Positions 46,888-63,750 of a stretch of 64,000 nucleotides of DNA are shown piece after piece. This DNA comes from Sinomonas sp. ASV486 (GTDB lineage: Bacteria > Actinomycetota > Actinomycetes > Actinomycetales > Micrococcaceae). The notes under the pieces are model-generated. The model was not told the origin of the DNA, ran no database searches, and saw nothing but the letters and a program-made list of their open reading frames with translations. The DNA is taken from the NCBI RefSeq assembly GCF_030908215.1, contig NZ_JAVFJK010000013.1:5528-69527 (forward strand), written 5' to 3'. The number at the start of each line of letters is the position of its first letter. The stretch's first letter is position 1. A program made the position numbers and the translations under genes.

Positions 46888-47757
46888 TCAGGAGAAGGCC
46901 ACGTCCTTGGTGGCGTGGTCGTACTCGATGGTGACCGACCCGCCGTCGTGCGCGAGCTCGTGGTTCGCCCCGTTGAAGGTACCGAACGCGCCGTAGTTCT
47001 CATCCCACGAGCGGTTGATCGCGATCTTGAAGGTGTAGTGGCCGGCGGGGAGGTCGACAGTGCGGACCCAGCGGCGCACCTGGGCGTCGAGGCCCATCTG
47101 GACGGCGTCCGGCTGGGGCTCCCAATCCGCGTCGGCCCCCAGATGCGTTCCGAAATCGCCGGCGATGGCGACTGCTTCGGGCTGATCAAGGTCGACGGCG
47201 CCCGGAACATCAGGTACGTCGGTTTCGTCTGCGGGGGCCTGTGCCGCAGCGGGCGCCGGGATCTCTGACGCAGTCGCCTCGATGGGCGCGGCCAGCTGCT
47301 CCGGCTGAGGCGCGGCGACGGTCTCCTTGACTGCCGCGGCCTTCTTCGCGGGGGCCTTCCGCGCGGGCTTCTTCTTCGCGGGCGGCGCTGCGGGAACTGG
47401 GGTATCAGCGGGGACAGGCGTGCCTGAGGCGAGGGCCTCGGCGAGCGCTTCGGCGGTCGGGAAGGCGACGGTAGCGCGGAGGCCGTCCTCGGTGATCGCC
47501 CAACCGGTCCGGCCCTTGACCATCCAGCCTGCCTTGACGAGCTTCGCTGTGGCAGCCGTCAGCGCCTTGTGCCCGCGCGGAATCCCGCCGGCCAGGAGGA
47601 AGGCCTCGGCCTCGTCGAAGGGAACCGCATCCACGGCCGCCGTCAGGACGGCCCGCGCATCCACCTGCTCGTCGGCCCATGCGGCCTCCGCGAGTCCGTC
47701 CAGCACCGCCTTGAGACGGAGTTCGAGCTTTCCTGCCGCGTTCGCGTTCCTGGGCAT
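46888..47757 (-). CDS. Winged-helix-like N-terminus fused to a pullulanase X25-type starch-binding domain
   Basis: 289 aa. Residues 1-100 are helical with a winged-helix flavour (RGHKALTAATAKLVKAGWMVKGRTGWAITEDGLRATVAF). Residues about 110-190 are a Lys/Ala/Pro-rich linker (PAKKKPARKAPAKKAAA) typical of nucleic-acid-associated actinobacterial proteins. The last ~95 residues (PEAVAIAGDFGTHLGADADWEPQPDAVQM...GHYTFKIAINRSWDENYGAFG...TIEYDHATKDVAFS) match the X25/pullulanase-associated beta domain. There is no catalytic domain or signal peptide. Start ATG 47757 has GAGGGGAAGAT upstream. Role unknown; it could tether DNA or another protein to glycogen. Confidence 0.75.
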   Translation of the reverse strand: MPRNANAAGKLELRLKAVLDGLAEAAWADEQVDARAVLTAAVDAVPFDEAEAFLLAGGIPRGHKALTAATAKLVKAGWMVKGRTGWAITEDGLRATVAFPTAEALAEALASGTPVPADTPVPAAPPAKKKPARKAPAKKAAAVKETVAAPQPEQLAAPIEATASEIPAPAAAQAPADETDVPDVPGAVDLDQPEAVAIAGDFGTHLGADADWEPQPDAVQMGLDAQVRRWVRTVDLPAGHYTFKIAINRSWDENYGAFGTFNGANHELAHDGGSVTIEYDHATKDVAFS

Positions 47758-47960
47758 ATCTTCCCCTCGTTGCGTTGCCTGCGGGACCCACATGCTCTCG
47801 GACCCCGTCTCCATGCTGTCCTGTTACTCGCGGGTCGCCACGTCGGTGACCGAGTGTGACGTGCAGAACAGGACTTCTGCCCAGCTTTTCGCGATCGGGT
47901 TTCGCGGAGGTTACAGGGACGCAACGGATTCGTGCCGGTACTCCTCGACGGCAGGCCCAC

Positions 47961-49734: not shown

Positions 49735-51177
49735 GTGGTGCCAACGGTGGACGTGCTCGAATTCGACGACGTGGTGATCGGTTTCGGCAAGGGTGGCAAG
49801 ACGCTCGCTGGCGTTCTCGGCCGCGCTGGCCGCCGGGTCGCCGTCGTCGAGCAGTCCGAGCAGATGTACGGCGGCACGTGCGTCAACATCGGCTGCGTGC
49901 CCACGAAGGCTCTCGTCTACGCCGCCCACTTGGGTCACGACGGGGATGACGCCGCGCACTACACCGACTCGATCGCTCAGAAGGACGCCTTGACGGCGAA
50001 GCTCCGCGCCGCCAACTTCACGATGCTCGACTCCGTGGACACCATCACGGTCATCACCGCCCGGGCAGAGTTCGTCGGGCCAAAGCGCGTGCGGCTGAGC
50101 GCCGGCACGGACGAGCGGGAGCTGACCGCCGAGCGGTTCTACCTCAACACCGGATCGCTCCCCGCCGTGCCGGACATCCCCGGCGCCTCCGAGGGCGGGC
50201 ACGTCCTGAGCCCGCGGATCCACACGTCCACCGAGCTCATCTCCGAGTCGAATCTCCCGGGCCGCCTCGTGATTGTGGGCGGCGGGTACATCGCCTACGA
50301 GTTCGCCTCGATGTACGCCGCCTTCGGCTCCGAGGTCACGGTGGTGGACCGCTCCCCCATCCCGCTCAAGCACGAGGACCGCGACGTCGCCGCGGCGGTC
50401 GCATCGGCGCTGACGGGCGACGGCGTGCGGTTCCTCCAGGGCGCCCGTGTCACCGGGGTCGCCGAATCCGGCGAGACAGGCGTCCCCGCGCACGACGGCG
50501 CGCTCGCTCCGGCCCTCGTGGGAGTCGCCACCGCTTCCGGTCCGATCACGATCGAAGCCGACGCGGTGCTCCTTGCTCTCGGACGCAGCCCGGCTACGGC
50601 GGGGCTGGGCCTCGACAAGGCGGGGGTCGAGACGGACGGGCGGGGCGCCGTCGTCGTCGACGAACGCCTGCGCACCACGGCACCGGACGTGTGGGCGCTC
50701 GGCGACGTCAACGGCGGCCCGCAGCACACCTACGTCTCGCTCGACGACCACCGAATCGTCCTCTCCCAGGTGGCTGGCGGCCCCGAGCGCACCACGGCGG
50801 ACCGCCGGACCATCCCGACGACCACGTTCGTCACGCCCCCCATGTCCCGCGTGGGCCTCACCGAGGGAGAGGCCCGGGCGCAGGCCGACGAGCACGGCTG
50901 GGACGTGGGCGTCGCGTCGAAAGAGGTTGCGAAGATCGCTGCGATGCCCCGGCCGAAGATCGTCCGCGACCCGCGCGGCCTCATCAAACTCGTGGTCGAC
51001 CGGAAGACCGAGACCGTTCTCGGCGCCACGCTGTTCTGCGTGGACTCGCAGGAGATCGTCAACCTCGTCTCCTTCGCGATGGACCATGGCCTGCCCTACA
51101 CCGCGCTGAGGGACCGGATGTACACGCACCCGTCGTCCTCCGAGGCGCTCAACGAGGTGCTCGGCACGATCGTCTGA
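49735..51177 (+). CDS. FAD-dependent pyridine nucleotide-disulfide oxidoreductase (RclA-like)
   Basis: 480 aa. FAD motif VIGFGKGGKTLAGVLGRAGRRVAVVEQ (GxGxxG relaxed), the redox disulfide C49-x4-C54 in GGTCVNIGCVPTKAL, the NAD(P) motif VIVGGGYIAYEFASMYAAFGSEVTVVD, second FAD motif DVWALGDVNGG, and the C-terminal interface HPSSSEALNE (His of the catalytic pair; the usual T is S). This combination matches RclA-type hypothiocyanous-acid reductases and mercuric-reductase relatives. A PPOX gene follows at 54 bases. GTG 49735 is the most upstream of three GTG candidates. Confidence 0.88.
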   Translation: MVPTVDVLEFDDVVIGFGKGGKTLAGVLGRAGRRVAVVEQSEQMYGGTCVNIGCVPTKALVYAAHLGHDGDDAAHYTDSIAQKDALTAKLRAANFTMLDSVDTITVITARAEFVGPKRVRLSAGTDERELTAERFYLNTGSLPAVPDIPGASEGGHVLSPRIHTSTELISESNLPGRLVIVGGGYIAYEFASMYAAFGSEVTVVDRSPIPLKHEDRDVAAAVASALTGDGVRFLQGARVTGVAESGETGVPAHDGALAPALVGVATASGPITIEADAVLLALGRSPATAGLGLDKAGVETDGRGAVVVDERLRTTAPDVWALGDVNGGPQHTYVSLDDHRIVLSQVAGGPERTTADRRTIPTTTFVTPPMSRVGLTEGEARAQADEHGWDVGVASKEVAKIAAMPRPKIVRDPRGLIKLVVDRKTETVLGATLFCVDSQEIVNLVSFAMDHGLPYTALRDRMYTHPSSSEALNEVLGTIV

Positions 51178-51726: not shown

Positions 51727-52509
51727 ATGGCCAACTCGCCGTCGGGCGAATCGATGGTGCACCGGATCGTGCGCGTCATCGAGGCGTTCGACGGCGAGCA
51801 CCACACCCTCAGCGCCGCGGAGCTCGCGCGACGCTCAGGGCTCCCGAGCAGCACCGCGTACAGGATCGTCGACGAGCTGCTCGCCGAGTCGGTCCTGGAC
51901 CGCGACGGCCAGCGGCTGCGCCTCGGGACCCGGCTGTGGGAGCTCGTCTCCCGCGGATCCAAGGTTCTGGGCCTGCGCGAGGCCGCGCTGCCCTTCATGG
52001 AGGACGTCCAGTCCGTGGTCGGGCACCACACGACGCTCGGTGTCGTCGACCAACAGGACGTGCTCTACATCGAGCGGATCGGGTCCAGCGAGTCCGCCGT
52101 CAACATCACCCGGGTCGCGGGGCGCCTGCCCATCCACGCGACGTCGACCGGACTCGTCCTGACCGCGTTCGGCCCGGTCGACGCCCAAGAGACTTTCCTG
52201 CGACGGCGCCTCCCGAAGCTCACGGACACCACTGTCACCGACCCGGACGAGCTGCGGCGCCAGCTCGCCGAGATCCGCCGCTCCGGGTACTGCGTCATGC
52301 CCGGCACGATCGTGCCGGAGTCTACGGGGGTGGCGGTCCCGGTCTTCAACGCCGACGGGGCCGCAGTCGCGGCCCTGAGCGTGGTCATCCCCCGCGTGAA
52401 CGGACCGGTCCAGACCTCCATTACCGCTCTCCAGACGGCGTCACGCGGCATCTCTCGCGCACTCGGATGGGACGGGACCCTCCGCGACGCCATCCGCCGG
52501 AGCCTCTGA
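51727..52509 (+). CDS. IclR-family regulator upstream of the chc cluster
   Basis: 260 aa. Winged helix (residues about 10-75: HRIVRVIEAFDGEHHTLSAAELARRSGLPSSTAYRIVDELLAESVLDRDGQ) and IclR effector domain (about 80-255: LPFMEDVQSVVGHHTTLGVVDQQDVLYIERIG, GLVLTAFGP, GVAVPVFNADGAAVAALSVVIP). It is paralogous to ChcR (59402) along its whole length: shared ARRSGLP, TAxRIxDELL, REAxLPFMEDVQ and PxTVTDPxxLRR. It lies 122 bases before chcC1, with the operator candidate between them; it may co-regulate chc. It is not part of the characterised chc gene set as I recall it. Confidence 0.87.
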   Translation: MANSPSGESMVHRIVRVIEAFDGEHHTLSAAELARRSGLPSSTAYRIVDELLAESVLDRDGQRLRLGTRLWELVSRGSKVLGLREAALPFMEDVQSVVGHHTTLGVVDQQDVLYIERIGSSESAVNITRVAGRLPIHATSTGLVLTAFGPVDAQETFLRRRLPKLTDTTVTDPDELRRQLAEIRRSGYCVMPGTIVPESTGVAVPVFNADGAAVAALSVVIPRVNGPVQTSITALQTASRGISRALGWDGTLRDAIRRSL

Positions 52510-52539: not shown

Positions 52540-52558
52540 CTTCCCGATCATTGGGAAG
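52540..52558. promoter_or_regulatory. IclR-type operator candidate at the chcC1 promoter
   Basis: CTTCCC (52540-52545), GATCATT, GGGAAG (52553-52558): perfect 6-bp inverted repeat 74 bases before the chcC1 ATG. The chcAa promoter has a near copy (CTTCCG-N5-CGGAAG, 60491-60507). Two bases after each repeat's right arm region lies GTGATC (52561; 60515), followed by ACACTC and GATGC at both loci. IclR regulators often use TTCC/GGAA-type palindromes. Confidence 0.6.
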
Positions 52559-52631: not shown

Positions 52632-54386
52632 ATGAAATACCTCAACGGCACCCCTCAGGCCACGTACGACGTCGTCGTGCTCGGCTCGGGCGCGGGAGCG
52701 CTCACTGCCGCCGCGACCGCAGCGCGAGCAGGCAAGTCCGTCTTCGTCCTCGAGAAGGCCAGCCTCCTCGGCGGCACGAGCGCGATCTCGGGCGGCATGC
52801 TCTGGATCGCCGCCAACCACTATGCCCGCCAGCGCGGCAGCGGCGAGGGCGGCTTCAGCGACACGGCGGAGGCCGCCGCCCAGTACGTCCGGGCCGTCTC
52901 CCGGGGCCGCGGCCGCGAGGAGCTCCTCGACGCCGCCGTCTCCTACGGCGACTCCATGCTCCGCTACGCCGAAGACGAGCTCGGCGTCAGGTTCCTATTC
53001 CTCGACAACTTCCCGGACTACCGCCAGGATCTCCCGGGCGCAGTCGACGGCGGCCGGACCATCGAGCCGCAGCTGGCCGACATCGACGAGCTGCTCGGCG
53101 ACCTCGGCCAGCACGTGCGGTCGGACGGCCGCGCACCGTTCACGATGCAGGAGTACGAGGACTGGGGCGCCTTCACCCGCTTCCCGTGGGACGAGCTCGA
53201 CGCCCGTGCGAAGGCGGGCCTCGTCGCGAAGGGCCGCGCCCTCATCACGATGCTGCTCGCGGCCGCGGTGCGGGACGGCGTCCACGTCGCCGTCGAGGCC
53301 CGCGGCGAGCGGCTGCTGCACAACGGACAGCCGGCGCACGACGGCGGGCGGGTCACCGGCGTCGTGCTGGCCACGGGCGAGGAGATCGCCGCGGGCGAGG
53401 CAGTGGTGATCGGAACGGGCGGGTTCGAGTGGGACCACGCGCTCGCCGACTCGATGCTCGCGAGCCGCCTCCACACGATGTGCTCTCCGCCCACGAACGA
53501 GGGTGACGGCCTGCGAATGGCCCAGCGCCTCGGCGCCCAGACGCGCGGGACGCGCGAGGCCTGGTGGGCGCCCATGTCCATCACCGGTGACACGCGGGAC
53601 GGGCGCCCGATCGGCACGCTCCTGCGCTTCGAGCGGCAGGGCCCGGGGTCGATCATGGTCAACCGCCACGGCCGCCGGTTCGCCAACGAGTCCCAGAACT
53701 ACAACGACCTGGCCCGGTGCCTCCAGTCGTGGGACTCCCCGAACAACGCCACGCTCAACACCCCGGCCCACGTCGTCTTCGACCAGGCCTACCTCGAGCG
53801 GTACGGCCTCCTCGCCCACCGGGCGGGCGAGCCCACGCCGGACTACCTCGTCGAGGGCGCCACCCTCACGGAGCTCGCCGCGAAGATCAGCGTGCCGGCC
53901 GCGAACCTCGTCGCAACCGTCGAGCGGTTCAACGAGTTCGCGGTCAAGGGCGAGGACCCGGACTTCCATCGGGGCGAGACCGCCTACGACCGTTACTGGG
54001 GCGACGCCGGCAACGCGTGGCCCAATCCCTCGCTGGGCCCGCTCGAGCGGGGCCCGTTCTACGCCCTCGAGGTGGTCAACGGCGCGTTCGGCACGAACGG
54101 CGGCATCGCCACTGACGGGCGAGCGCGCGTGCTCGACGTCGACGGCGCCGCAATCCCGGGCCTGTTCGCCGTGGGCAACGCGACCGAGAGCGCCTACGCC
54201 GCGGGCTACCCCGGCGCGGGCGCAACGCTCGGCCCGCTCATGACCATGGGGTACCTCGTGGGCCGCACGATCGCCGGCCAGTCGGCGGACTACGAACCCG
54301 CCGCGGACGACGCCGTCCCGTCCGTCCGCGGGAACCTCGCCGACGCTGGGCTTGCGGGAGCCGAACTCGAAGGAGCCGTCCGATGA
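52632..54386 (+). CDS. chcC1: ChcC1: 4-oxocyclohexanecarboxylate desaturase (flavoprotein)
   Basis: 584 aa. KstD/fumarate-reductase-type flavoprotein: N-terminal Rossmann DVVVLGSGAGALTAAATAARAGKSVFVLEKASLLGGTSAISGGMLWI, FAD-binding C-terminus GGIATDGRARVLDVDGAAIPGLFAVGNATESAYAAGYPGAGATLGPLMTMG. As I recall the Sinomonas work, the first enzyme of this cluster dehydrogenates 4-oxocyclohexanecarboxylate to the 2-enone and carries covalently bound FAD; no attachment residue is evident to me. ATG 52632 lies 10 bases after AAGGAG. It overlaps chcX (ATGA), beginning a transcription unit with operator at 52540. Confidence 0.88.
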   Translation: MKYLNGTPQATYDVVVLGSGAGALTAAATAARAGKSVFVLEKASLLGGTSAISGGMLWIAANHYARQRGSGEGGFSDTAEAAAQYVRAVSRGRGREELLDAAVSYGDSMLRYAEDELGVRFLFLDNFPDYRQDLPGAVDGGRTIEPQLADIDELLGDLGQHVRSDGRAPFTMQEYEDWGAFTRFPWDELDARAKAGLVAKGRALITMLLAAAVRDGVHVAVEARGERLLHNGQPAHDGGRVTGVVLATGEEIAAGEAVVIGTGGFEWDHALADSMLASRLHTMCSPPTNEGDGLRMAQRLGAQTRGTREAWWAPMSITGDTRDGRPIGTLLRFERQGPGSIMVNRHGRRFANESQNYNDLARCLQSWDSPNNATLNTPAHVVFDQAYLERYGLLAHRAGEPTPDYLVEGATLTELAAKISVPAANLVATVERFNEFAVKGEDPDFHRGETAYDRYWGDAGNAWPNPSLGPLERGPFYALEVVNGAFGTNGGIATDGRARVLDVDGAAIPGLFAVGNATESAYAAGYPGAGATLGPLMTMGYLVGRTIAGQSADYEPAADDAVPSVRGNLADAGLAGAELEGAVR

Positions 54387-54688
54387 TCCGCCACGCCGTC
54401 CTGTTCAAGTTCACGCCCGATTTCCCCGCCGAGCAGCGCGCGGCCTGGACCGCCGGGCTCGACCGGATGCGCGGCAACGTCCCCGGCCTCCTGGCCCTCA
54501 CGCACGGGCCCGACGTCATCCGCTCGGAGCGGGCCTTCGACTACGCCATCGTCGCGGACTTCGCGTCCGTCGCCGACATCGAGGTCTACAACACCCATCC
54601 CCTGCACGAGCCGCTGAAGAAGTACTCCTTCCCGAACAGCGAGCAGATCATCTCCGTCGACTTCGAGATCCCCAAGGACACCCCATGA
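54383..54688 (+). CDS. chcX: ChcX: Dabb (stress-responsive A/B barrel) protein
   Basis: 101 aa. RHAVLFKFTPDFPAEQRAAWTAGLDRMRGNVPGLLALTHGPDVIRSERAFDYAIVADFASVADIEVYNTHPLHEPLKKYSFPNSEQIISVDFEIP is a complete Dabb ferredoxin-like dimer fold, with the conserved His4 and H-P motif (NTHPLHE). Dabb proteins include plant olivetolic acid cyclase and bacterial accessory proteins; this one has no assigned role. Translationally coupled to both neighbours (ATGA at each end). It may protect or tautomerise unstable enone intermediates; inference only. Confidence 0.85.
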   Translation: MIRHAVLFKFTPDFPAEQRAAWTAGLDRMRGNVPGLLALTHGPDVIRSERAFDYAIVADFASVADIEVYNTHPLHEPLKKYSFPNSEQIISVDFEIPKDTP

Positions 54689-56097
54689 GCACTGCAGCCC
54701 GCCCCCACCCAGCCGGCCCGTCAGCGCCCGGCGCCCCCGCGCCGTCGCACGTCGCCACGGACGCCCCGCGCAAGACGCCCGGCAAGACTCCGGGCAAGAC
54801 TCCGGGCAAGGCGGCACTTGCGTCCTTCCTCGGCTCCACCCTCGAGTACTACGACTTCTTCATCTACGGCACGGCCGCGGCCCTCGTGTTCCCGGCCCTG
54901 TTCTTCCCCGCCGACAACCCGACGGTGGGCCTCATCGCGGCGTTCGCCACGTTCGGCGTGGCTTATGTGGCCCGCCCCCTCGGCGGCATGGTCATGGGCC
55001 ACTTCGGCGACCGGCTCGGGCGCCGCAACGTCCTCCTCGTAACCCTGTCCCTCATGGGTCTGGCCTCGCTGGGCATCGGCTTCCTGCCCACGTACGACTC
55101 GGTTGGCCTCCTCGCCCCCGTGCTCCTGACCCTCGGACGGCTGCTCCAGGGCTTCTCCGCCGGCGCCGAGTCGGCGGGCGCCTCAACCCTGACGCTCGAG
55201 CACTCCCCCGAGGGCAGGCGCGGCTTCTTCACCTCGTTCGTCATGACCGGCTACGCGTCCGGCATGGTCCTCGCGACCATCGTGTTCGTCCCGATCACCT
55301 CCCTGCCGAAGGCCGACCTCATGGCGTGGGGCTGGCGCGTTCCGTTCTGGTGCTCGATCGTGGTGCTCGCGATCGCCTACTGGGTGCGGACGCACCTCGA
55401 GGAAACCCCGGTGTTCGAGGAGGCCCGCGAGTCGGACACGCGCAGGAAGCTCCCCCTCGGCCAGGTGCTGCGGTTCCAGGCGGCCGACGTGGTCCGCGTC
55501 CTGTTCATGTCCATTTTCTCTGTGATGCAGACGATCTTCACGGTGTTCGGCCTCTCCTACGCCACGGCCCACGGCGGACTCGACAGGGGCGCGATCCTCA
55601 CGATCAACGCGGTGACCATCGGCCTGTCCATGGCCGTCATGCCCGCCGTCGCCGCCCTGTCCGACCGGATCGGCAGGAGGCCCGTGCTCCTCGTCTCCAT
55701 GGTGGGCTGCATTGCCGCCCTCTTCGGCTACTTCTGGGCGCTCGGCACCGGGAACCTCGTCCTCGTCTTCGTCGCGAGCTTCCTCTTCATGACCGTCCTG
55801 TACTCGGGATTCAACGGCGCATGGCCCAGCTTCTTCGCCGAGCTCTTCGCCGCACCCGTCCGGTACACCGGCATGGCGCTGGGCAACCAGCTCGGCCTGC
55901 TCGTCGCCGGATTCGGACCCATGATCGGCGGCCTGCTCATGACCTCCGGCCCCACCGGCTGGATCCCCGTCGCCGTGTTCGGGTCGGTCTGCGCGCTCGC
56001 GGCCATCATCGCCGTCGCGACCTCGAGGGAAACCGCCCGCACCCCGATCGACGAGCTCGGCGAGCCGTACCTCAAGGCCGTCGCGGCCAAGCGCTGA
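54685..56097 (+). CDS. chcT: ChcT: MHS-family (MFS) organic acid transporter
   Basis: 470 aa, 12 helices. The MHS subfamily signs are GSTLEYYDFFIYGTAAAL at the first helix, GHFGDRLGRRNVLL (inter-helix 2-3 loop), GRLLQGFSAGAESAGASTL and the repeat loop SDRIGRRPVLL. MHS members import metabolite acids with protons (shikimate, 4-methylmuconolactone, proline/betaine). Here the likely substrate is cyclohexanecarboxylate. The N-terminal ~40-residue extension holds three KTPG repeats. It overlaps chcX by ATGA; chcC2 follows 18 bases after the stop. Confidence 0.9.
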   Translation: MSTAARPHPAGPSAPGAPAPSHVATDAPRKTPGKTPGKTPGKAALASFLGSTLEYYDFFIYGTAAALVFPALFFPADNPTVGLIAAFATFGVAYVARPLGGMVMGHFGDRLGRRNVLLVTLSLMGLASLGIGFLPTYDSVGLLAPVLLTLGRLLQGFSAGAESAGASTLTLEHSPEGRRGFFTSFVMTGYASGMVLATIVFVPITSLPKADLMAWGWRVPFWCSIVVLAIAYWVRTHLEETPVFEEARESDTRRKLPLGQVLRFQAADVVRVLFMSIFSVMQTIFTVFGLSYATAHGGLDRGAILTINAVTIGLSMAVMPAVAALSDRIGRRPVLLVSMVGCIAALFGYFWALGTGNLVLVFVASFLFMTVLYSGFNGAWPSFFAELFAAPVRYTGMALGNQLGLLVAGFGPMIGGLLMTSGPTGWIPVAVFGSVCALAAIIAVATSRETARTPIDELGEPYLKAVAAKR

Positions 56098-56115
56098 CCC
56101 ACAACACGAACAGGA

Positions 56116-57873
56116 ATGACACCAGTGAAGAAGACAGCAGCCTGCGACGTCCTCGTCGTCGGATCCGGAGCCGCGGGCATGGCCGCCGCGCTCAAGGCGG
56201 CCAGCCAGGGCCTGAGCGTGATCGTCGCCGAGAAGGAGCAGTACTTCGGCGGTACCACCGCAATCTCCGCGGGATGGGCCTGGGTTCCGGGCAACAGGGT
56301 GGGCGCCGCGGCAGGCGACACGCGTGAGGAGGTCGAGACCTATCTGAAGAACCTCGCTCCGGGGACGTACGACGCCGACGGCGTCGCGCAGTTCCTCGAT
56401 GCCGTCCCCGAGGCGCTGGACTTCTTCGAGCGGGAGACCGACGTCGAGTTCGTCTACCCCGAGAAGGCGCCCGACTACCAGATGGACCTCCCGGGCGCCC
56501 GCCTCGGTGGCCGCGCGATCCTGCCGAAGGACACCGACGCCCGCATCCTGGGCGACAAGCGCCTGCTCATGCAGCCCTACCTGTCCTCCTACACGGTGTT
56601 CGGGTACATGCCGCAGGTGGGACCCGACATGAATGAGTTCGTCCATGTCAACCAGTCGGTGAAGTCCTTCGTGTACGTCGCGAAGAAGCTCCTGCGCACG
56701 TGGCTCGACACCGCACGCTACCGCCGGCCCGTGCTCCGCACGAACGGAAACGCCCTCATGACCCTCATGGTCAAGAGCGCCTACGACGCGGGCGTGCGGA
56801 TGTGGACATCCTCGCCCGTCGTCTCGCTCACGCGAGGAGACGACGGCGCGGTCACCGGGGCGGTGCTCGGCGGCGAGCACCCCGTGCGGGTCGAGGCGAA
56901 GCTCGGCGTCGTCCTCGCCGCGGGCGGATTCTCCGGCAACGCCGAGCTGCGCAGGCAGTACTTCCCGCACGACGCCACGGGCGACGACCACTTCACGCCC
57001 ACCGTCGGCCACGGCGGCGACGCCGCGACTCTGGCCCTGGCCGCGGGCGGGCGGATCGACGACGGCGTGTCCTCCGTCGGCTCGTGGGCCCCCGTGACGG
57101 TGTTCCGCTACCGCGACGGGCGCCAGCGCCTCTTCCCGCACCTGCGGGCCATTGGCCTGCCCGGTCTCATCGCCGTGGATCGCCATGGCAAGCGCTTCGG
57201 CAACGAGGCCCTGAGCTACCACGACTTCGGCGGGGCGATGATCGCGCACAACGCGGGCGAGGACAAGACCTTCGGGTGGGTCATCGGTGACGCGAAGACG
57301 ATGCACAAGTACGGGATCGGCTACGCCAAGCCGTGGCCCATGCCGCGGGGCTACTTCTACAAGACCGGCTATCTGGTCAAGGGACCGACGCTGGACGAGC
57401 TCGCAAGCAAGATCGGCGTCGACGCCGCTGGTCTCAAGGAGACGGTGGCCGAATTCAACGTGGGCGCACGCGCCGGCGAGGACCCCGAGTTCGGGCGTGG
57501 CTCGACCGAGTACAACCACTTCCGCGGGGACATGGACCACAAGCCCAATCCCAACCTGGCGCCCCTGGACAAGGGCCCGTTCTACGCCGCCAAGATCCAG
57601 ATGGGCGACCTCGGCACGTTCGCGGGCATCGCCGTCGACCGCGACAACGTGGTCGTCACCGAGGAAGGCGCCCCGATCCCGGGCCTCTTCGCGGTCGGCG
57701 CGGCCGCGCGCAGCGTGTTCGGCGGCGGGTACCCGGGGTATGGCTCGCACATCGGCGCGGCGCTCGTGTTCGGGTACCGGGCGGGGCGCGATGTCGCCCG
57801 CCTCGCGGCAGCGAGAGGGATCAGGCGCGACGTGGAGCGAGGCCTCGAGGTCACCGAGGAGGCCGCACGATGA
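56116..57873 (+). CDS. chcC2: ChcC2: 4-oxocyclohexenecarboxylate desaturase (flavoprotein)
   Basis: 585 aa. Similar plan to ChcC1: N-terminal VLVVGSGAAGMAAALKAASQGLSVIVAEKEQYFGGTTAISAGWAWVPGN and C-terminal GIAVDRDNVVVTEEGAPIPGLFAVGAAARSVFGGGYPGYGSHIGAALVFGYRAGR. Introduces the second double bond so that the ring aromatises to 4-hydroxybenzoate, as I recall the pathway. Long middle segment with DFFERETDVEFVYPEKAPDYQMDLPGA. GTGAAG-type codons at the start: the ATG at 56116 follows CAGGA. It overlaps chcB1 by ATGA. Confidence 0.88.
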   Translation: MTPVKKTAACDVLVVGSGAAGMAAALKAASQGLSVIVAEKEQYFGGTTAISAGWAWVPGNRVGAAAGDTREEVETYLKNLAPGTYDADGVAQFLDAVPEALDFFERETDVEFVYPEKAPDYQMDLPGARLGGRAILPKDTDARILGDKRLLMQPYLSSYTVFGYMPQVGPDMNEFVHVNQSVKSFVYVAKKLLRTWLDTARYRRPVLRTNGNALMTLMVKSAYDAGVRMWTSSPVVSLTRGDDGAVTGAVLGGEHPVRVEAKLGVVLAAGGFSGNAELRRQYFPHDATGDDHFTPTVGHGGDAATLALAAGGRIDDGVSSVGSWAPVTVFRYRDGRQRLFPHLRAIGLPGLIAVDRHGKRFGNEALSYHDFGGAMIAHNAGEDKTFGWVIGDAKTMHKYGIGYAKPWPMPRGYFYKTGYLVKGPTLDELASKIGVDAAGLKETVAEFNVGARAGEDPEFGRGSTEYNHFRGDMDHKPNPNLAPLDKGPFYAAKIQMGDLGTFAGIAVDRDNVVVTEEGAPIPGLFAVGAAARSVFGGGYPGYGSHIGAALVFGYRAGRDVARLAAARGIRRDVERGLEVTEEAAR

Positions 57874-58649
57874 CCCCGGTATCGGATCGAGTCGCCGGGA
57901 AGGTCGCCCTCATCTCGGGTGCGGCCCGCGGCATGGGTGCCTCGCACGCGCAGGTCCTCGCGGAGCACGGCGCGAGCGTCGTCATCGCCGACCTGCTCGA
58001 CGACGAGGGCCGCACCCTCGCCGAGAAGATCAATGCTGAGTCCAACACCGGGATCGGGCGCGACGTCGCCCTCTTCGTCCACCTCGACGTCACGGACTAC
58101 GAAAGTTGGCAGCGCGCGGTGAATGCCGCCGTCGAACGCTTCGGGACGCTCGACGTGCTCGTCAACAACGCTGGGATCTTCACGCGCGGCAGCGTCGAGG
58201 ACGCAGACGTCGACGAGTGGCGCCGCACCATCGACATCGACCTGACCGGGAACTTCCTGGGCATGAAGGCCGCGGTGCCGGCCATGAAGGCCTCGGGCGG
58301 GTCGATCATCAACATCTCCTCGATCGCCGGGCTCGTCGGGTTCAAGAACCGGGCGGCCTACGCGGCCGCGAAGTGGGGGGTCCAGGGGCTCACCAAGACG
58401 AGCGCGATGGACCTAGGTCCGTACAACATCCGGGTCAACTCGGTGCACCCGGGCTCGGTCAAGACGCCCATGACGGCGGGCCTGGCGCGCGGCTTCGGGC
58501 AGATTCCGCTGGGCCGTGACGCCGAGACGCAGGAGATCTCGGACCTCATCCTGTTCCTTGCCTCGGACGAGTCGAGCTTCATGACCGGCGCGAACCTCGC
58601 GATCGACGGCGGCGAGACCGCGGGGAACAACCTGCGGCAGGACGCCTAG
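57870..58649 (+). CDS. chcB1: ChcB1: trans-4-hydroxycyclohexanecarboxylate dehydrogenase (SDR)
   Basis: 259 aa. Classical SDR: SGAARGMGASHAQVLAEHGASVVIADLLDDEG (Asp: NAD), DVLVNNAGIF, catalytic Ser in NISSIAGLVGF and YAAAK (YxxxK), then PGSVKTPMTAGL and MTGANLAIDGGETAG. Oxidises the ring 4-hydroxyl to the ketone in the chc pathway; trans specificity is assigned from the named cluster, not visible here. ATG within the ATGA overlap with chcC2; chcB2 follows directly after the stop. Confidence 0.9.
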   Translation: MTPVSDRVAGKVALISGAARGMGASHAQVLAEHGASVVIADLLDDEGRTLAEKINAESNTGIGRDVALFVHLDVTDYESWQRAVNAAVERFGTLDVLVNNAGIFTRGSVEDADVDEWRRTIDIDLTGNFLGMKAAVPAMKASGGSIINISSIAGLVGFKNRAAYAAAKWGVQGLTKTSAMDLGPYNIRVNSVHPGSVKTPMTAGLARGFGQIPLGRDAETQEISDLILFLASDESSFMTGANLAIDGGETAGNNLRQDA

Positions 58650-59399
58650 GTGGGCCAGGCATTCGCCGGCCGGGTGGCGGTGGTGACCGGCGCGGCGTCG
58701 GGCATCGGGGAGGCGACCGCGCGTCTGCTCGCCGGGCGCGGCGCCGCCGTGGTGATCGGGGACGTCGCGGAGGGGGCGGACGACGTCGCGCGCTCCCTCC
58801 GGGACGCCGGTCACCGCGCGCTGTGGGTACGCACTGACGTGACGGACGAGGACTCGGTGGCTGCGCTCATGGACCGCGCGGCCACCGAGTTCGGCTCGCT
58901 CGACGTCCTCGTGGCCAACGCCGGCATCGCCGAGCCGAAGGGGCCCCTGCACGAGCTCGATGTCGCCGCGTGGCGGCGGGTGGTCGAGATCGACCTCACC
59001 GGCGTTGCGCTGTGCGGCAAGCACGCGCTGCGGCACATGGTCGCTGCCGGGTCCGGGTCAATCGTCAACGTGTCCTCGATCCTCGGCACCGTGGGGCAGC
59101 GCAACAGTTCCTCGTACTCCGCCGCCAAGGCGGCCGTTGCGAACCTGACGCGGTCCACCGCCGTGACGTACGCGGCGAGCGGGATCCGAGTCAACGCCGT
59201 CGCACCCGGGTACGCGGACACGCCCCTCGTGGCAGGCCTGCCCGAGGACGTGCGCGGCGGCATCGCCGCGAGCCAGCCGATCGGCCGGCTCGCTCGGCCC
59301 GAGGAGATCGCCGAGGCCATCGCGTTCCTCGCCTCGGACGCGGCCTCCTTCGTCGTGGGCACGATCCTCGCCGTAGACGGCGGCTACACTGCCGTCTAG
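58650..59399 (+). CDS. chcB2: ChcB2: cis-4-hydroxycyclohexanecarboxylate dehydrogenase (SDR)
   Basis: 249 aa, GTG start (58650) with no gap after the chcB1 stop. TGAASGIGEATARLLAGRGAAVVIGDVAEGADDV (Asp), LVANAGIAEP (NAG), catalytic Ser NVSSILGTVGQRNSSSYSAAKAAVANL with YxxxK, and VVGTILAVDGGY. Partner of ChcB1 with the epimeric alcohol as substrate in the published scheme. The ribosome site lies in the chcB1 end (GCAGGACGCC), so translation is probably coupled. Confidence 0.9.
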   Translation: MGQAFAGRVAVVTGAASGIGEATARLLAGRGAAVVIGDVAEGADDVARSLRDAGHRALWVRTDVTDEDSVAALMDRAATEFGSLDVLVANAGIAEPKGPLHELDVAAWRRVVEIDLTGVALCGKHALRHMVAAGSGSIVNVSSILGTVGQRNSSSYSAAKAAVANLTRSTAVTYAASGIRVNAVAPGYADTPLVAGLPEDVRGGIAASQPIGRLARPEEIAEAIAFLASDAASFVVGTILAVDGGYTAV

Positions 59400-59401
59400 C
59401 C

Positions 59402-60190
59402 ATGCCCGAACCCACACGTGATTCCATCATCAGCAGGGTGGTGCGGATCCTCAGCTGCTTCGACCGCAGCACGGCGGCCCTGAGCCTGAGCAGCCTCGCC
59501 CGCCGCTCAGGGCTGCCGCTCACCACCGCGCACCGAATCACGGACGAGCTCCTGCGCCACGGGCTGCTCGAGCGCGACTCCGCGGGCGACCTCCGGCCCG
59601 GCCTGCGGATGTGGGAGCTCGCGAACCGCGCCTCGCATGCCCTGACGCTCCGCGAGGCCTGCCTGCCGTTCATGGAGGATGTCCAGGCGGCGGTCCACCA
59701 CCACGTCACCCTCGCCGTGCTCGACCGCGGCAGCGCCCTCTACGTCGAGAGGCTCTCCGCGCCCGAATCGCCGCTCGAGGCCGCGAACATCGCCCAGCGC
59801 ATGCCGCTGCACGCCTCCTCGAGCGGCCTCGTCCTGCTCGCGTTCTCCGAGGCCGCCGTGCAGGCCCGAGCCCTGGCCGGCCCACTCGAGAAGGTCACGC
59901 CGGAGACCGTCACCGACCCCGCCGCACTCCGCCGGACCCTCGCCGACATCCGCCAGAAAGGCTTCGCGGCGCCACCGGGCATCGGTCGGACCGAGTGGAT
60001 CGGCGTGGCCGTTCCCGTCTTCGGGTCCGAGAGGACGGCCGAGGGACCGGTCATCGCGGCGGCTCTCAACGCGATCCTCCCCCGCACCGAGGCCGACCTC
60101 GTCCCGCGGGTGGTCGTCGCACTCACGACGGCGGCCCACGGCGCCACCCGAGCCCTCCGCGGCACGATCGGCCAGCCCGCGACCCCCTAA
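59402..60190 (+). CDS. chcR: ChcR: IclR-family regulator of the chc genes
   Basis: 262 aa, two bases after chcB2. Winged helix ISRVVRILSCFDRSTAALSLSSLARRSGLPLTTAHRITDELLRHGLLERDSAGDLR and effector domain CLPFMEDVQAAVHHHVTLAVLDRGSALYVERL, HASSSGLVLLAFSE, GVAVPVFGSERTAEGPVIAAALNAILP. Likely sensor of cyclohexanecarboxylate or a pathway intermediate, activating the chcC1 and chcAa promoters; both carry TTCC/GGAA palindromes. A 463-base gap follows before the P450 genes. Confidence 0.87.
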   Translation: MPEPTRDSIISRVVRILSCFDRSTAALSLSSLARRSGLPLTTAHRITDELLRHGLLERDSAGDLRPGLRMWELANRASHALTLREACLPFMEDVQAAVHHHVTLAVLDRGSALYVERLSAPESPLEAANIAQRMPLHASSSGLVLLAFSEAAVQARALAGPLEKVTPETVTDPAALRRTLADIRQKGFAAPPGIGRTEWIGVAVPVFGSERTAEGPVIAAALNAILPRTEADLVPRVVVALTTAAHGATRALRGTIGQPATP

Positions 60191-60653
60191 CCTCGAGTGG
60201 CCGCCTCGCCGCGATCCGTGTCTGCGCACGACGCCGTCCCCCGCCGAACGCCGCCCCCTCCCCGGACGCAGGCCTCTCGCCAAGTTCAGGTCTCGCGACC
60301 AAGTGCGCTACGGGCCGACTCCATTGCGACAGCAGTACTTGACGACACGGACAGCGAGACGCGAAGCTCGCGGCGAAGTTCTGGCTGCCGGCTATCCCCG
60401 ATCCCGAGGCCACAGGGCTCGACGTCGGCCTCACAGGACCCGGCCTCGGCAGGGTGGCCACCGCTCGAGGCCCGAGCGGGGGAGGCAATTCTTCCGACCA
60501 CCGGAAGGGTCCCTGTGATCGGGTCCACGGGCACGCCACACTCGATGCAACGACGTGATCAGCGTCACGGGATGCGGCACAGAAGTCGCCCCGAAGCCCC
60601 TTGAGACCGCATAGCGTGCAATGCCGCGCGCCCGCGGCCGGAAGGAACTCATC
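60191..60653 (+). promoter_or_regulatory. Promoter/operator region of chcAaAbAc (463 bases)
   Basis: No credible gene. CTTCCG-ACCAC-CGGAAG (60491-60507) is the near copy of the chcC1 operator candidate. GTGATC (60515), ACACTC (60538) and GATGC (60544) follow in the same order as at chcC1. A weaker inverted repeat CGTGA-N6-TCACG lies at 60554-60569. GGAAGG precedes the ATG at 60654. This fits the P450 genes being a separate inducible transcript. Confidence 0.6.
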
Positions 60654-62021
60654 ATGACCCTCACCTGCCCGTTCACCGGAGTGACGGCCGACGCCGCCGG
60701 TGACGCTCCCAGCCCAGGCGCGGAGACCGCCGTCGTGCGCCAGGCAACGCCGGAGCTGCCGCCCTACTCCCACGAGCTCGACTGGCCCGAAGGCCTCGAG
60801 CCGTTCAAGGTTGTCGACGACGGCAGCCAGGGCGACCCGTACGCCCACTACCGCTGGATGCTCGAGAACGCCCCGGTGCTGCGGGCGGCGTCGCCCGTCT
60901 CGGACGTGTGGTTCATCTCCCGGTTCGAGGACGTCCGCAAGGCGCTTCGGGCGCCGAAGGTCTTCTCCTCGGAGGTCGTCAGGCCGGTCCCCCTCACGTT
61001 CCTGACGCTCATCGACGCCCCGGACCACTCGCGCCTGCGCCAGATCGTCGCGAAGGCGTTCACCCCCAAGGCCATCAACCTCTTCGAGGATCGGATCCGC
61101 GAGACCGCCGGGAAGCTCCTCGACGAGCTCATCACACGCGGCGGGGGCGACGTCGTCGAGGAGTACGCGATCCCCCTGAGCATGTCCACGATCAGCGCCC
61201 TGCTCGACGTCCCGGCCGAGGACTTCGACAAGATGAAGTTCTGGTCCGACGAGACCTTCAGCTACTTCGGCCGCCTGGCCCGCAACGCGCCGGGCACAGG
61301 CACCGACGAGGAGAGCGCCAACGCCTTCTTCGCATACCTCAAGGACACGATGGAGCGCCTCTACGCGGAGGGCAACGAGTCCGTGGGCGGGCACATCGCG
61401 CGCATGTGGAAGGAGGGGCAGCTCTCCGAGAAGGAGGCCAAGGAGCTGTGCGCGTTCGTGTTCATCGCCGGGCACGACACGACGACGATCCTGCTCGCCA
61501 ACGCGTTCCGCGTGTTCACGGAGCAGCCGGGGCTCCTGGACCGGATCCAGGCAAACCCAGCGGACGCGGACGCTTTCGTCGAGGAACTCGCGCGGTACCG
61601 GGGAACGGTCCAGCGCGTCTCGCGGATCACGACCGAGGAGGTCGAGGTCGCGGGGGTGACCCTGCCGAAGGGCGCGATCGTGCGGCTCATGCCCGCTGCC
61701 GCGAACCACGATGCGGCGAAGTACCCCGACCCCGACGTGTTCGCCATCGACCGCGACACCAATGGACACCTCGGCTTCGGCCACGGCGTGCACGCGTGCC
61801 TCGGCGCGCCGCTCGCGCGGCTCGAGACGCGGATCACCACCGAAATCCTGGGCAGCCGCCTCGCGCACATCGCCCTGGACCCCGCCCACGAGATCGAGTA
61901 CGTGCGCGGCAACAATCTGACCAACTCCGGGCCCGAGCGCCTCGTTGTGACCGTCGAAGCCCGCAACGGCACCAGCCAGAACACGGGAAGCCAGAACACC
62001 GCGGAGGTCCGCCATGCGTGA
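60654..62021 (+). CDS. chcAa: ChcAa: cytochrome P450 cyclohexanecarboxylate 4-hydroxylase
   Basis: 455 aa, bacterial class I P450. I-helix FIAGHDTTT (about residues 270-278; Thr of the oxygen pocket), K-helix ExxR in EELARYR, and heme loop FGHGVHACLG with Cys382 as ligand. It receives electrons from ChcAc via ChcAb and hydroxylates cyclohexanecarboxylate at C4. The start ATG 60654 is chosen over 60621, which adds a basic stretch; GGAAGG is eight bases upstream. Its stop overlaps the chcAb start by eight bases. Confidence 0.93.
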   Translation: MTLTCPFTGVTADAAGDAPSPGAETAVVRQATPELPPYSHELDWPEGLEPFKVVDDGSQGDPYAHYRWMLENAPVLRAASPVSDVWFISRFEDVRKALRAPKVFSSEVVRPVPLTFLTLIDAPDHSRLRQIVAKAFTPKAINLFEDRIRETAGKLLDELITRGGGDVVEEYAIPLSMSTISALLDVPAEDFDKMKFWSDETFSYFGRLARNAPGTGTDEESANAFFAYLKDTMERLYAEGNESVGGHIARMWKEGQLSEKEAKELCAFVFIAGHDTTTILLANAFRVFTEQPGLLDRIQANPADADAFVEELARYRGTVQRVSRITTEEVEVAGVTLPKGAIVRLMPAAANHDAAKYPDPDVFAIDRDTNGHLGFGHGVHACLGAPLARLETRITTEILGSRLAHIALDPAHEIEYVRGNNLTNSGPERLVVTVEARNGTSQNTGSQNTAEVRHA

Positions 62022-63312
62022 GAACATCCAGACCGCCCGTCCCGCCGTGGTCATCGTCGGATCCGGCCACGCGGGCGTCGGCGTCGCCGCCGGTCTGCGG
62101 TCACGGGGCTGGGAGGGCAGGATCGTCCTGGTCGACGCCGAGGGGCAGCTTCCGTACGAGCGGCCGCCGCTCTCGAAGGACCTCCTTGTGCCGGGCGCCC
62201 CGGCCGAGCCCGTGCCTATGCGCAAGGAGTCCTGGTTCGAGTCCCGCGGGATCGAACGCGTCCACGGAACCGCCGCATCCATCGACCGCGATCGTCGTGA
62301 GCTGCGGCTCGCGGACGGGCGGGCCCTGCCCTACGTGAAGCTCATCCTCGCGACCGGCTCAACGCCCCGGCGCCTCACCGTCCCGGGCGCGGACCTCGAC
62401 GGCGTCCTGATGCTCAAGACGCTCCCCGACGCCCGCCGCCTCGCGGCCGAGCTCGCCCCGTCGTCCGACACTGCCCCGGACGCGGCGCGCCACGTCGTCG
62501 TCATCGGTGCGGGGTACATCGGGCTCGAGGTCGCGGCCGCGGCGGCCAAGCACGGCTGCCGCGTGACCGTGCTCGAGTTCCAGGACCGGGTCATGAGCCG
62601 TGTGACGAGCGAGCCCGTCTCGCGCTTCTTCGAGGGCCTGCACGGGCGCGCCGGCGTCGAGTTCCGCTTCGGTGCCGCCGTCACGGCGCTCGAAGGGACC
62701 GACTCCCCGGACGGCGCCGGGCGCGTCGAGTGGGTCGTGACGGCCGACGGCGCGCGGCACCGTGCCGACGTCGTCGTCGCCGGGATCGGGGTGATCCCCG
62801 AGCAGGGTCTCGCGGCCGACGCCGGACTCGAGGCGTCCGACGGGATCCTCGTCGACGCCGGCGGACGCACCTCCGACCCAGATATCTACGCGGCCGGCGA
62901 CGCGACGCGGTTCGCGAGCCTGTACGACGGCGCGAGCCAGCGCCTCGAATGCATCCAGAACGCGCGGGCCCAGGCCGAGGCCATTGCCGCGGACATCGCC
63001 GGGCAGGCGCCGCCCGCGCCCGAGGTGCCGTGGTTCTGGACCGTCCAGCACGGGGTCCGGCTGCAGACGGCCGGCGTCCGGCATCCCGACGACGACGTTC
63101 TCCTGCGTGGCGACCCGGCCAACGGGAAGTTCTCCGTCATCTACCTGCGCGGCGGCCGGGTCGCCGCGGTCGACACGGTCGGCTCCCTCGCCGACTTCAA
63201 CGCGGGCAAGAAGCTCGTCGCCCAGCGCGCCACGATCGACCCGAGCCTCGCCGCCGACCCGTCCCTCCCGCTCGACCAAGCCATCGCTCCCCTTGAGCCC
63301 GCCGCGCTCTGA
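62014..63312 (+). CDS. chcAb: ChcAb: FAD-dependent ferredoxin reductase
   Basis: 432 aa, putidaredoxin-reductase type. FAD motif VVIVGSGHAGVGVAAGLRSRGWEGRIVLVDAEGQLPYERPPLSK, NAD motif VVVIGAGYIGLEVAAAAAKHGCRVTVLE, and FAD-binding C-terminus SDPDIYAAGDATRF and LECIQNARAQAEAIA. Passes electrons from NADH to the ferredoxin ChcAc. Starts inside the chcAa end (8-base overlap). The ferredoxin gene follows 41 bases after. Confidence 0.94.
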   Translation: MRENIQTARPAVVIVGSGHAGVGVAAGLRSRGWEGRIVLVDAEGQLPYERPPLSKDLLVPGAPAEPVPMRKESWFESRGIERVHGTAASIDRDRRELRLADGRALPYVKLILATGSTPRRLTVPGADLDGVLMLKTLPDARRLAAELAPSSDTAPDAARHVVVIGAGYIGLEVAAAAAKHGCRVTVLEFQDRVMSRVTSEPVSRFFEGLHGRAGVEFRFGAAVTALEGTDSPDGAGRVEWVVTADGARHRADVVVAGIGVIPEQGLAADAGLEASDGILVDAGGRTSDPDIYAAGDATRFASLYDGASQRLECIQNARAQAEAIAADIAGQAPPAPEVPWFWTVQHGVRLQTAGVRHPDDDVLLRGDPANGKFSVIYLRGGRVAAVDTVGSLADFNAGKKLVAQRATIDPSLAADPSLPLDQAIAPLEPAAL

Positions 63313-63353
63313 GGCGCGGATCCCACTGCCCACCACACCGAAAGGCCACTGAC

Positions 63354-63674
63354 ATGCCCACGACCATCATCGCCGTCGACCGCGACGGCACCCGGCACTC
63401 GCTCGTCTGGGACGAGGACCAGACCCTCATGGAGACCCTGCGCGACAACGACCTGCCTGTGCTCGCCTCGTGCGGCGGAACGGCGTCGTGCGCGACGTGC
63501 CATGTGTACCTCGAGGAGCCCGTCGCCGCGCGCCTCGGCGAGCGCAGCGCCGACGAGGCCGAGCTCTTGGCCGACGCGGAGGGGTTCCGCGAATGCGGCT
63601 CGCGCCTCTCATGCCAGATCGGGCACGACGCCGCGCACGATGGCATCCTCGTGGAGCTCGCGCCCGAGGGCTGA
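63354..63674 (+). CDS. chcAc: ChcAc: [2Fe-2S] ferredoxin (putidaredoxin type)
   Basis: 106 aa. Cysteine ligands 40, 46, 49 and 87 (C-x5-C-x2-C-x37-C), as in adrenodoxin/putidaredoxin. Sequence around them: LASCGGTASCATCHVYLEE and SRLSCQI. The C-terminal aromatic that putidaredoxin uses with its P450 is absent (ends LVELAPEG). It shuttles electrons from ChcAb to ChcAa. AAAGG lies before ATG 63354. The terminator at 63705 closes the cluster. Confidence 0.94.
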   Translation: MPTTIIAVDRDGTRHSLVWDEDQTLMETLRDNDLPVLASCGGTASCATCHVYLEEPVAARLGERSADEAELLADAEGFRECGSRLSCQIGHDAAHDGILVELAPEG

Positions 63675-63704
63675 TTCCTCGGCGGGCACTGACCGAAGAA
63701 AGCA

Positions 63705-63747
63705 CCTCGGTCGGGACCGTCGCGGATGACGACGGTCCCGACCGAGG
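63705..63747. terminator. Perfect 18-bp bidirectional terminator
   Basis: CCTCGGTCGGGACCGTCG (63705-63722), loop CGGATGA, CGACGGTCCCGACCGAGG (63730-63747). It lies between the plus-strand chcAc stop (63674) and the minus-strand ABC gene stop (63751), serving both. Confidence 0.85.
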
Positions 63748-63750
63748 CCG

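Follow-up and report, generated by a model that had tools for sequence, protein, structure and literature searches.

The question raised by this locus is whether ten consecutive genes of Sinomonas sp. ASV486 together encode a complete route by which a saturated ring acid, cyclohexanecarboxylate (CHCA), is turned into an aromatic one and, if so, how that route may be controlled and where its product may go. The genes lie in a 64,000-nucleotide stretch of contig NZ_JAVFJK010000013.1 (assembly GCF_030908215.1), here called the window, which is part of a 4.28 Mb genome in 19 contigs that is 99.66% complete. A sequence-only reading of the window had assigned them to a cyclohexanecarboxylate aromatisation (chc) cluster, and ten intact open frames were indeed found on the + strand from 52632 to 63674 in the order it gave, namely desaturase, Dabb protein, MHS transporter, desaturase, two short-chain dehydrogenases/reductases (SDRs), IclR regulator, P450, ferredoxin reductase and ferredoxin; its inventory had, however, overlooked a second IclR-family gene (IclR2) upstream of these ten. 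The order equals chcC1XTC2B1B2RAaAbAc, the one reported for Sinomonas cyclohexanicum ATCC 51369, whose chc cluster was reportedly described by Yamamoto et al. in 2021. The locus is very probably a complete pair of chc operons for the aerobic aromatisation of CHCA. The system is a known one and this is a well-supported further member of it; what is new is detail on its likely regulation, on its lower pathway and on a possible role for ChcX.

The identity of the cluster is carried first by four NCBIfam equivalog models that bear chc names and have curated cut-offs. ChcC1 scored 1003.9 bits against NF053676 (cut-off 1000), ChcC2 1024.3 bits against NF053677 (cut-off 900), ChcB1 446.4 bits against NF053702 (cut-off 400) and ChcB2 410.5 bits against NF053701 (cut-off 350), and when the models were exchanged within each pair only 315, 295, 203 and 204 bits were obtained, which supports the placing of ChcC1 before ChcC2 and of the trans-specific before the cis-specific SDR in the earlier reading. 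Both desaturases were aligned with 3-ketosteroid dehydrogenase chains, among them structure 4c3x (KstD1), the correspondence of residues being read by eye with the numbering offset by hand and the letters confirmed in ChcC1 and ChcC2. On this alignment Y130, Y357, Y526 and G530 of ChcC1, and Y121, Y368, Y539 and G543 of ChcC2, correspond to Tyr119, Tyr318, Tyr487 and Gly491, the key residues given for KstD1 in an excerpt of PMC5348764. The families and positions of the other six proteins fit a chc cluster, and P450, ferredoxin reductase and ferredoxin go together as one unit by their families, their motifs and the spacing of their genes (-8 and 41 bases). A table row in the Delftia comparison of PMC13141888 names chcAa as cyclohexane-1-carboxylate 4-trans-hydroxylase (K27672), in agreement with the trans-specific ChcB1 encoded here.

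In the order of steps set out in a passage of PMC9795900 that cites Yamamoto 2021, ChcT would bring CHCA into the cell, the P450 ChcAa, receiving electrons through ChcAb and ChcAc, would hydroxylate it at C4, ChcB1 would act on the trans and ChcB2 on the cis alcohol, both yielding 4-oxo-CHCA, the KstD-like flavin dehydrogenases ChcC1 and then ChcC2 would strip two pairs of hydrogens from the ring, and the dienone would tautomerise to 4-hydroxybenzoate. The genes, their order and families, the residues aligned with known catalytic ones, the conserved sites and the genes of the lower pathway are read from the sequence, and the substrate and the induction of the locus are predicted. Catabolism seldom runs in this direction, from a saturated ring to an aromatic one.

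The earlier expectation that pobA would be needed and would lie outside the window was borne out, as a gene for this 4-hydroxybenzoate 3-monooxygenase was found elsewhere in the genome (C12:214736-215896; 487.1 bits against the broader subfamily model NF006091, cut-off 351), adjoining an IclR gene and a gene for a symporter of aromatic acids, the scores of these two neighbours being under the cut-offs of their models. PobA would convert 4-hydroxybenzoate to protocatechuate, the ring of which could then be opened at the 4,5 bond by a fused LigAB protocatechuate 4,5-dioxygenase encoded about 12 kb from pobA (L114:6021-7646, on C12; 870.7 bits against NF009912, cut-off 837, with LigA and LigB domains present). 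Genes for an amidohydrolase, an RraA-like protein and a GFO/IDH/MocA protein near LigAB fit a 4,5-cleavage route. The best match in the whole genome to the model for pcaH (protocatechuate 3,4-dioxygenase beta) reached 51.5 bits against a cut-off of 296.4, and as LigAB is over its cut-off and pcaH far under, protocatechuate is probably cleaved at the 4,5 bond and not by the beta-ketoadipate route, the one named in PMC9795900 for the bacteria discussed there.

The spacing of the genes agrees with two transcription units, one from C1 to R and the other from Aa to Ac: the distances from chcC1 to chcR are -4, -4, 18, -4, 0 and 2 bases, a gap of 463 bases follows chcR, and the three genes of the P450 unit are again tightly packed. 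IclR2, which sits 122 bases ahead of chcC1, is 47% identical to ChcR and 43% identical to the IclR protein beside pobA. Among 62 named loci from relatives (handles with L denote loci and those with G genomes), 58 have a usable C1, and 55 of these carry IclR2 at most 2.5 kb ahead of it; two of the three exceptions are cut by a contig end (L074, L091) and the third, L068, is without the gene over 3 kb. In 35 of the 55, IclR2 is separated from C1 by an extra SDR gene.

The gap between IclR2 and chcC1 holds a palindrome, TTCCCGATCATTGGGAA, which is the sole match in the window at up to 3 mismatches (0.09 expected); TTCCCGATNATNGGGAA has a single exact match in the genome, at 52541..52557, and 14 of the 17 positions are invariant in nine aligned Sinomonas and Tersicoccus sequences. 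Strict patterns found the palindrome in 39 of the 55 IclR2-C1 gaps, compared with 28 matches elsewhere in the 58 loci, which total 1.15 Mb, and a general form, which is a post hoc fit written after reading the 16 gaps missed by the strict patterns, is exact in 50 of the 55 (200 shuffles: mean 0.065, maximum 1), those not matched exactly being L075, L086, L087, L090 and L094. A second palindrome, CTTCCGACCACCGGAAG, is taken as a candidate operator because it is conserved before chcAa and not because of its count in the window, where 3 matches at up to 3 mismatches (3.96 expected) are at chance level. Among 21 sequences upstream of Aa, including that of the window and of its same-species relative, the general form occurs with at most one mismatch in 17 (shuffles: mean 2.3, maximum 8) and a CRP-like GWGA-N6-TCAC in 15 (mean 0.05, maximum 1), although both forms were drafted after viewing the sequences, with one position widened, the shuffles preserve nothing beyond base composition, and sequences from relatives are not independent of one another. 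The Sinomonas form stands before Aa instead in L039, L088 and L103, and L086 has neither form. The CRP-like site of the window, CGTGATCAGCGTCACG, so labelled from its likeness to the CRP/GlxR consensus, is unique there as an exact match, with 22 matches at up to 3 mismatches (4.71 expected); it suggests that the P450 unit may be under carbon-source control. Treating the C1 and Aa palindromes as one motif was rejected, as in Sinomonas they share a core only, the agreement in Arthrobacter being closer.

From these sites we infer that two paralogous IclR proteins, IclR2 upstream and ChcR inside the cluster, may control the two units through the related palindromes. It seems unlikely that IclR2 is an unrelated neighbour and that ChcR binds both palindromes by itself: the likeness of the two regulators and the common core of the two sites would allow this, and the place of IclR2 outside the reported chc cluster also speaks for it, but the gene keeps its place ahead of C1 in nearly all loci, with the palindrome directly behind it, whereas a ChcR of at least 60% identity is present in only 19 of the 55 loci (in stretches of at most 10 kb either side of C1, some less). 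Furthermore, 20 of the 36 loci lacking such a ChcR have the site by the strict patterns, the general form being as widespread overall as given above. ChcR homologues, mostly 62-66% identical, lie between C2 and the P450 genes in many Arthrobacter loci. Among the papers listed in literature searches, none was seen to deal with the upstream IclR or with a function of ChcX, though Yamamoto 2021 may treat both.

The distribution of the cluster was surveyed in 295 genomes of the family and 14 control genomes (E limits 1e-150 and 1e-200). The C1 model matched in 26 of the 295 (25 over cut-off) and the C2 model in 25, with 24 genomes common to both and none of the 14 controls matched by either, which argues that the cluster is not a chance grouping; C1 was found without C2 in G063 and G137, and C2 without C1 in G163. 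Among the genomes listed, a list outside which 249 matchless genomes fall, 7 of the 15 of the genus have C1. The cluster proteins of a genome of the same species (G207) are 95-100% identical to those of the window, with 98.6% identity over 4617 bases around C1. In a scan of named genomes, from which records very close to the window may be missing, the nearest ChcC1 came from Sinomonas sp. R1AF57, and a plasmid search with C1 gave a single match, at 43%, on a Rhodococcus plasmid. In four relatives (L039, L088, L102 and L103) the P450 module adjoins the operon, and 4 of 12 genomes matched in the P450 search overall. Three Sinomonas genomes that do carry C1-X-T-C2-B1-B2 (G175, G084 and G121; loci L104, L109 and L110) are without a close P450, so the hydroxylase is a separable module, and in these three the substrate may be an already oxygenated ring acid or another hydroxylase may serve.

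Such operons also bear on whether the same architecture could here serve a related substrate, such as a cyclohexanecarboxylate that bears hydroxyl or other substituents, an acid of the shikimate type or some other naphthenic acid, CHCA being no more than a side substrate. ChcT points somewhat that way, since its best model after the general symporter model is that of a shikimate transporter (305.2 bits, under the cut-off of 538; against TIGR00883 it scored 367.5 bits, under 443.45), but the P450 module is present in the window and beside the operon in the four relatives, and ChcC1, ChcC2, ChcB1 and ChcB2 are all over specific chc cut-offs, so we regard a different main substrate as very improbable. 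That the locus is part of a cluster for steroids or other ketones, with ChcC1 and ChcC2 as ordinary 3-ketosteroid dehydrogenases, is scarcely credible and was dropped, for although among solved structures the two come closest in sequence to 3-oxosteroid 1-dehydrogenases, three steroid dehydrogenase models gave only 283-396 bits (cut-offs 788-793) compared to 1004 and 1024 for the chc models.

Several points nevertheless weigh against the reading of the locus as a complete chc operon pair. ChcC1 exceeds its cut-off by a mere 3.9 bits, and for the other six proteins (ChcX, ChcT, ChcR and the three of the P450 unit) the NCBIfam search gave no model specific to chc; pobA is under the cut-off of the stricter TIGR02360 (385.2 against 538.7); no P450 match at E 1e-80 was obtained in the whole genomes of the three Sinomonas named above, which are half of the six others searched that bear C1; the general operator forms and the CRP-like form were, as said, fitted after the sequences had been seen; and the comparison with the published cluster is one of models, order and families, not of published protein sequences.

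The second desaturase, too, is a separable part. A whole-genome search for C2 in 20 named genomes, 15 of them chosen for having no nearby C2, gave no C2 over cut-off in any of these 15 (the other five have C2) and a weaker relative (503-507 bits) in four of them, and on a C1 tree of 57 rows the absence of C2 requires three changes compared to a shuffled mean of 13.5. The 15 are the genomes of the C1-X-T cassettes L042, L045, L046, L047, L050-L054, L067, L071, L081-L083 and L085. In the C2-less cassettes L051 and L105 the SDRs reach neither the ChcB1 nor the ChcB2 cut-off. The C2 of G243 (in L108) has one in-frame stop and is otherwise a close chc homologue, and one in-frame stop is also found in the P450 homologue of the C2-less genome G300, given which decay is as likely an explanation as a new pathway, and the latter idea was set aside.

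The Dabb protein ChcX accompanies C1 closely, its gene coming at most 250 bases after C1 in 53 of 55 loci (L089 is without X and L098 is cut by a contig end). A profile of 24 ChcX proteins (that of the window and 23 of the 55 collected) matched first 3bgu, a Dabb structure of unknown function (1.1e-14), and then olivetolic acid cyclase (OAC; 8e-12), while Foldseek with an AlphaFold2 model of ChcX (mean pLDDT 93.7) placed an OAC structure first (E 4.6e-9, TM 0.76) and 3bgu second; a hydroxynitrile lyase and, lower, 4-methylmuconolactone methylisomerase, a catabolic isomerase, were among the other matches. Y69 and H75, invariant in all 24 proteins, align with Tyr72 and His78, described in a section of PMC7962319 as the acid/base residues of OAC, which according to the same section was held to lack aromatase activity. 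The pair is aligned in 3bgu as well and may be a mere family marker. We propose that ChcX may be an isomerase or tautomerase using acid/base chemistry on a keto-ene intermediate. The fuller suggestion is tentative and, we think, rather doubtful as a whole: that ChcX is an OAC-related Dabb enzyme of the pathway which takes the enone or dienone from ChcC1 (and ChcC2), shifts or tautomerises it and thereby drives aromatisation, and that the conserved IclR2-C1-X-T core, whether or not C2 and P450 accompany it, is a module of its own which actinobacteria have combined for different ring acids.

The positions of all features are collected in the table. The start of chcAa given there was favoured over 60621 because GGAAGGA precedes it. 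A scan of the region for sigma-70-type promoters found none (0.3 expected), and terminator-like sites numbered 4 (2.8 expected). Ahead of IclR2, at 49735-51177, lies a gene for a pyridine nucleotide-disulphide oxidoreductase with a dimerisation domain, a homologue of which is at the same place in L039, L041, L102 and L109, and on the - strand at 46888-47814 is an open frame whose sole Pfam match is a C-terminal pullulanase X25 domain.

Table. Features of the chc locus and its surroundings, in window positions
Feature	Position	Strand	Basis
IclR2, second IclR-family regulator, candidate regulator of C1 unit	51727..52509	+	PF09339 + PF01614
Palindrome TTCCCGATCATTGGGAA, candidate operator of C1 unit	52541..52557		match scan and conservation
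chcC1, 4-oxocyclohexanecarboxylate 2-dehydrogenase (desaturase 1)	52632..54386	+	NF053676
chcX, Dabb (dimeric alpha/beta-barrel) protein, candidate isomerase	54383..54688	+	PF07876
chcT, MHS-type metabolite/H+ symporter	54685..56097	+	PF00083, PF07690
chcC2, 4-oxocyclohex-2-ene-1-carboxylate 5-dehydrogenase (desaturase 2)	56116..57873	+	NF053677
chcB1, trans-4-hydroxycyclohexanecarboxylate dehydrogenase (SDR)	57870..58649	+	NF053702; YAAAK, GAARGMG
chcB2, cis-4-hydroxycyclohexanecarboxylate dehydrogenase (SDR)	58650..59399	+	NF053701; YSAAK, GAASGIG
chcR, IclR-family regulator	59402..60190	+	PF09339, PF01614
Palindrome CTTCCGACCACCGGAAG, candidate operator of P450 unit	60491..60507		conservation before Aa
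CGTGATCAGCGTCACG, CRP/GlxR-like site before P450 unit	60554..60569		likeness to CRP/GlxR consensus
chcAa, cytochrome P450	60654..62021	+	PF00067; heme motif FGHGVHACLG, I-helix AGHDTT
chcAb, ferredoxin reductase	62014..63312	+	PF07992 + PF14759; two GxGxxG motifs
chcAc, [2Fe-2S] ferredoxin	63354..63674	+	PF00111; C-x5-C-x2-C...C
Terminator-like hairpin, 20 pairs, directly past chcAc	63704..63748		scored on - strand

The locus offers a regulatory model that can be tested, in which two paralogous IclR proteins are matched with two palindromes, and a candidate job for a Dabb protein. Comparison among relatives shows three separable modules, namely the hydroxylase, the second desaturase and C1-X-T, and this modularity bears on the breakdown of naphthenic acids and on the making of 4-hydroxybenzoate from alicyclic acids.

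Among known systems the closest is the chc cluster of S. cyclohexanicum ATCC 51369, which is reported to be alike in gene order, families and enzyme slots; to that account the present locus adds the upstream IclR, the operator-like sites, the LigAB gene and the hypothesis on ChcX. In ATCC 51369 pobA is involved in CHCA metabolism and is flanked by a regulator gene, according to a passage of PMC5906575, and the arrangement of pobA beside an IclR gene here agrees with this. The chc-like loci of Arthrobacter, Paenarthrobacter, Glutamicibacter, Corynebacterium, Cryobacterium and Microbacterium have IclR2 and C1, nearly always X and usually T, with C2 in many and R-Aa-Ab-Ac in some, but differ in that many Arthrobacter have two divergent operons and some genomes of these genera are without C2. 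The CoA-dependent pathways (bad/ali), as treated in part of PMC9795900, act on the same substrate through CoA thioesters and do not aromatise it to 4-hydroxybenzoate, and the chcpca cluster of BCP1, in the corresponding part of PMC5906575, takes it through beta-oxidation. KstD1 shares its family and four key residues with ChcC1 and ChcC2, the substrate being different (PMC5348764, in excerpt). Finally, OAC (PMC7962319, in the section cited) has in common with ChcX the Dabb fold and the Tyr/His pair, whereas identity in the structure search is 17-20% and the reaction of OAC is an aldol cyclisation belonging to a polyketide pathway of plants.

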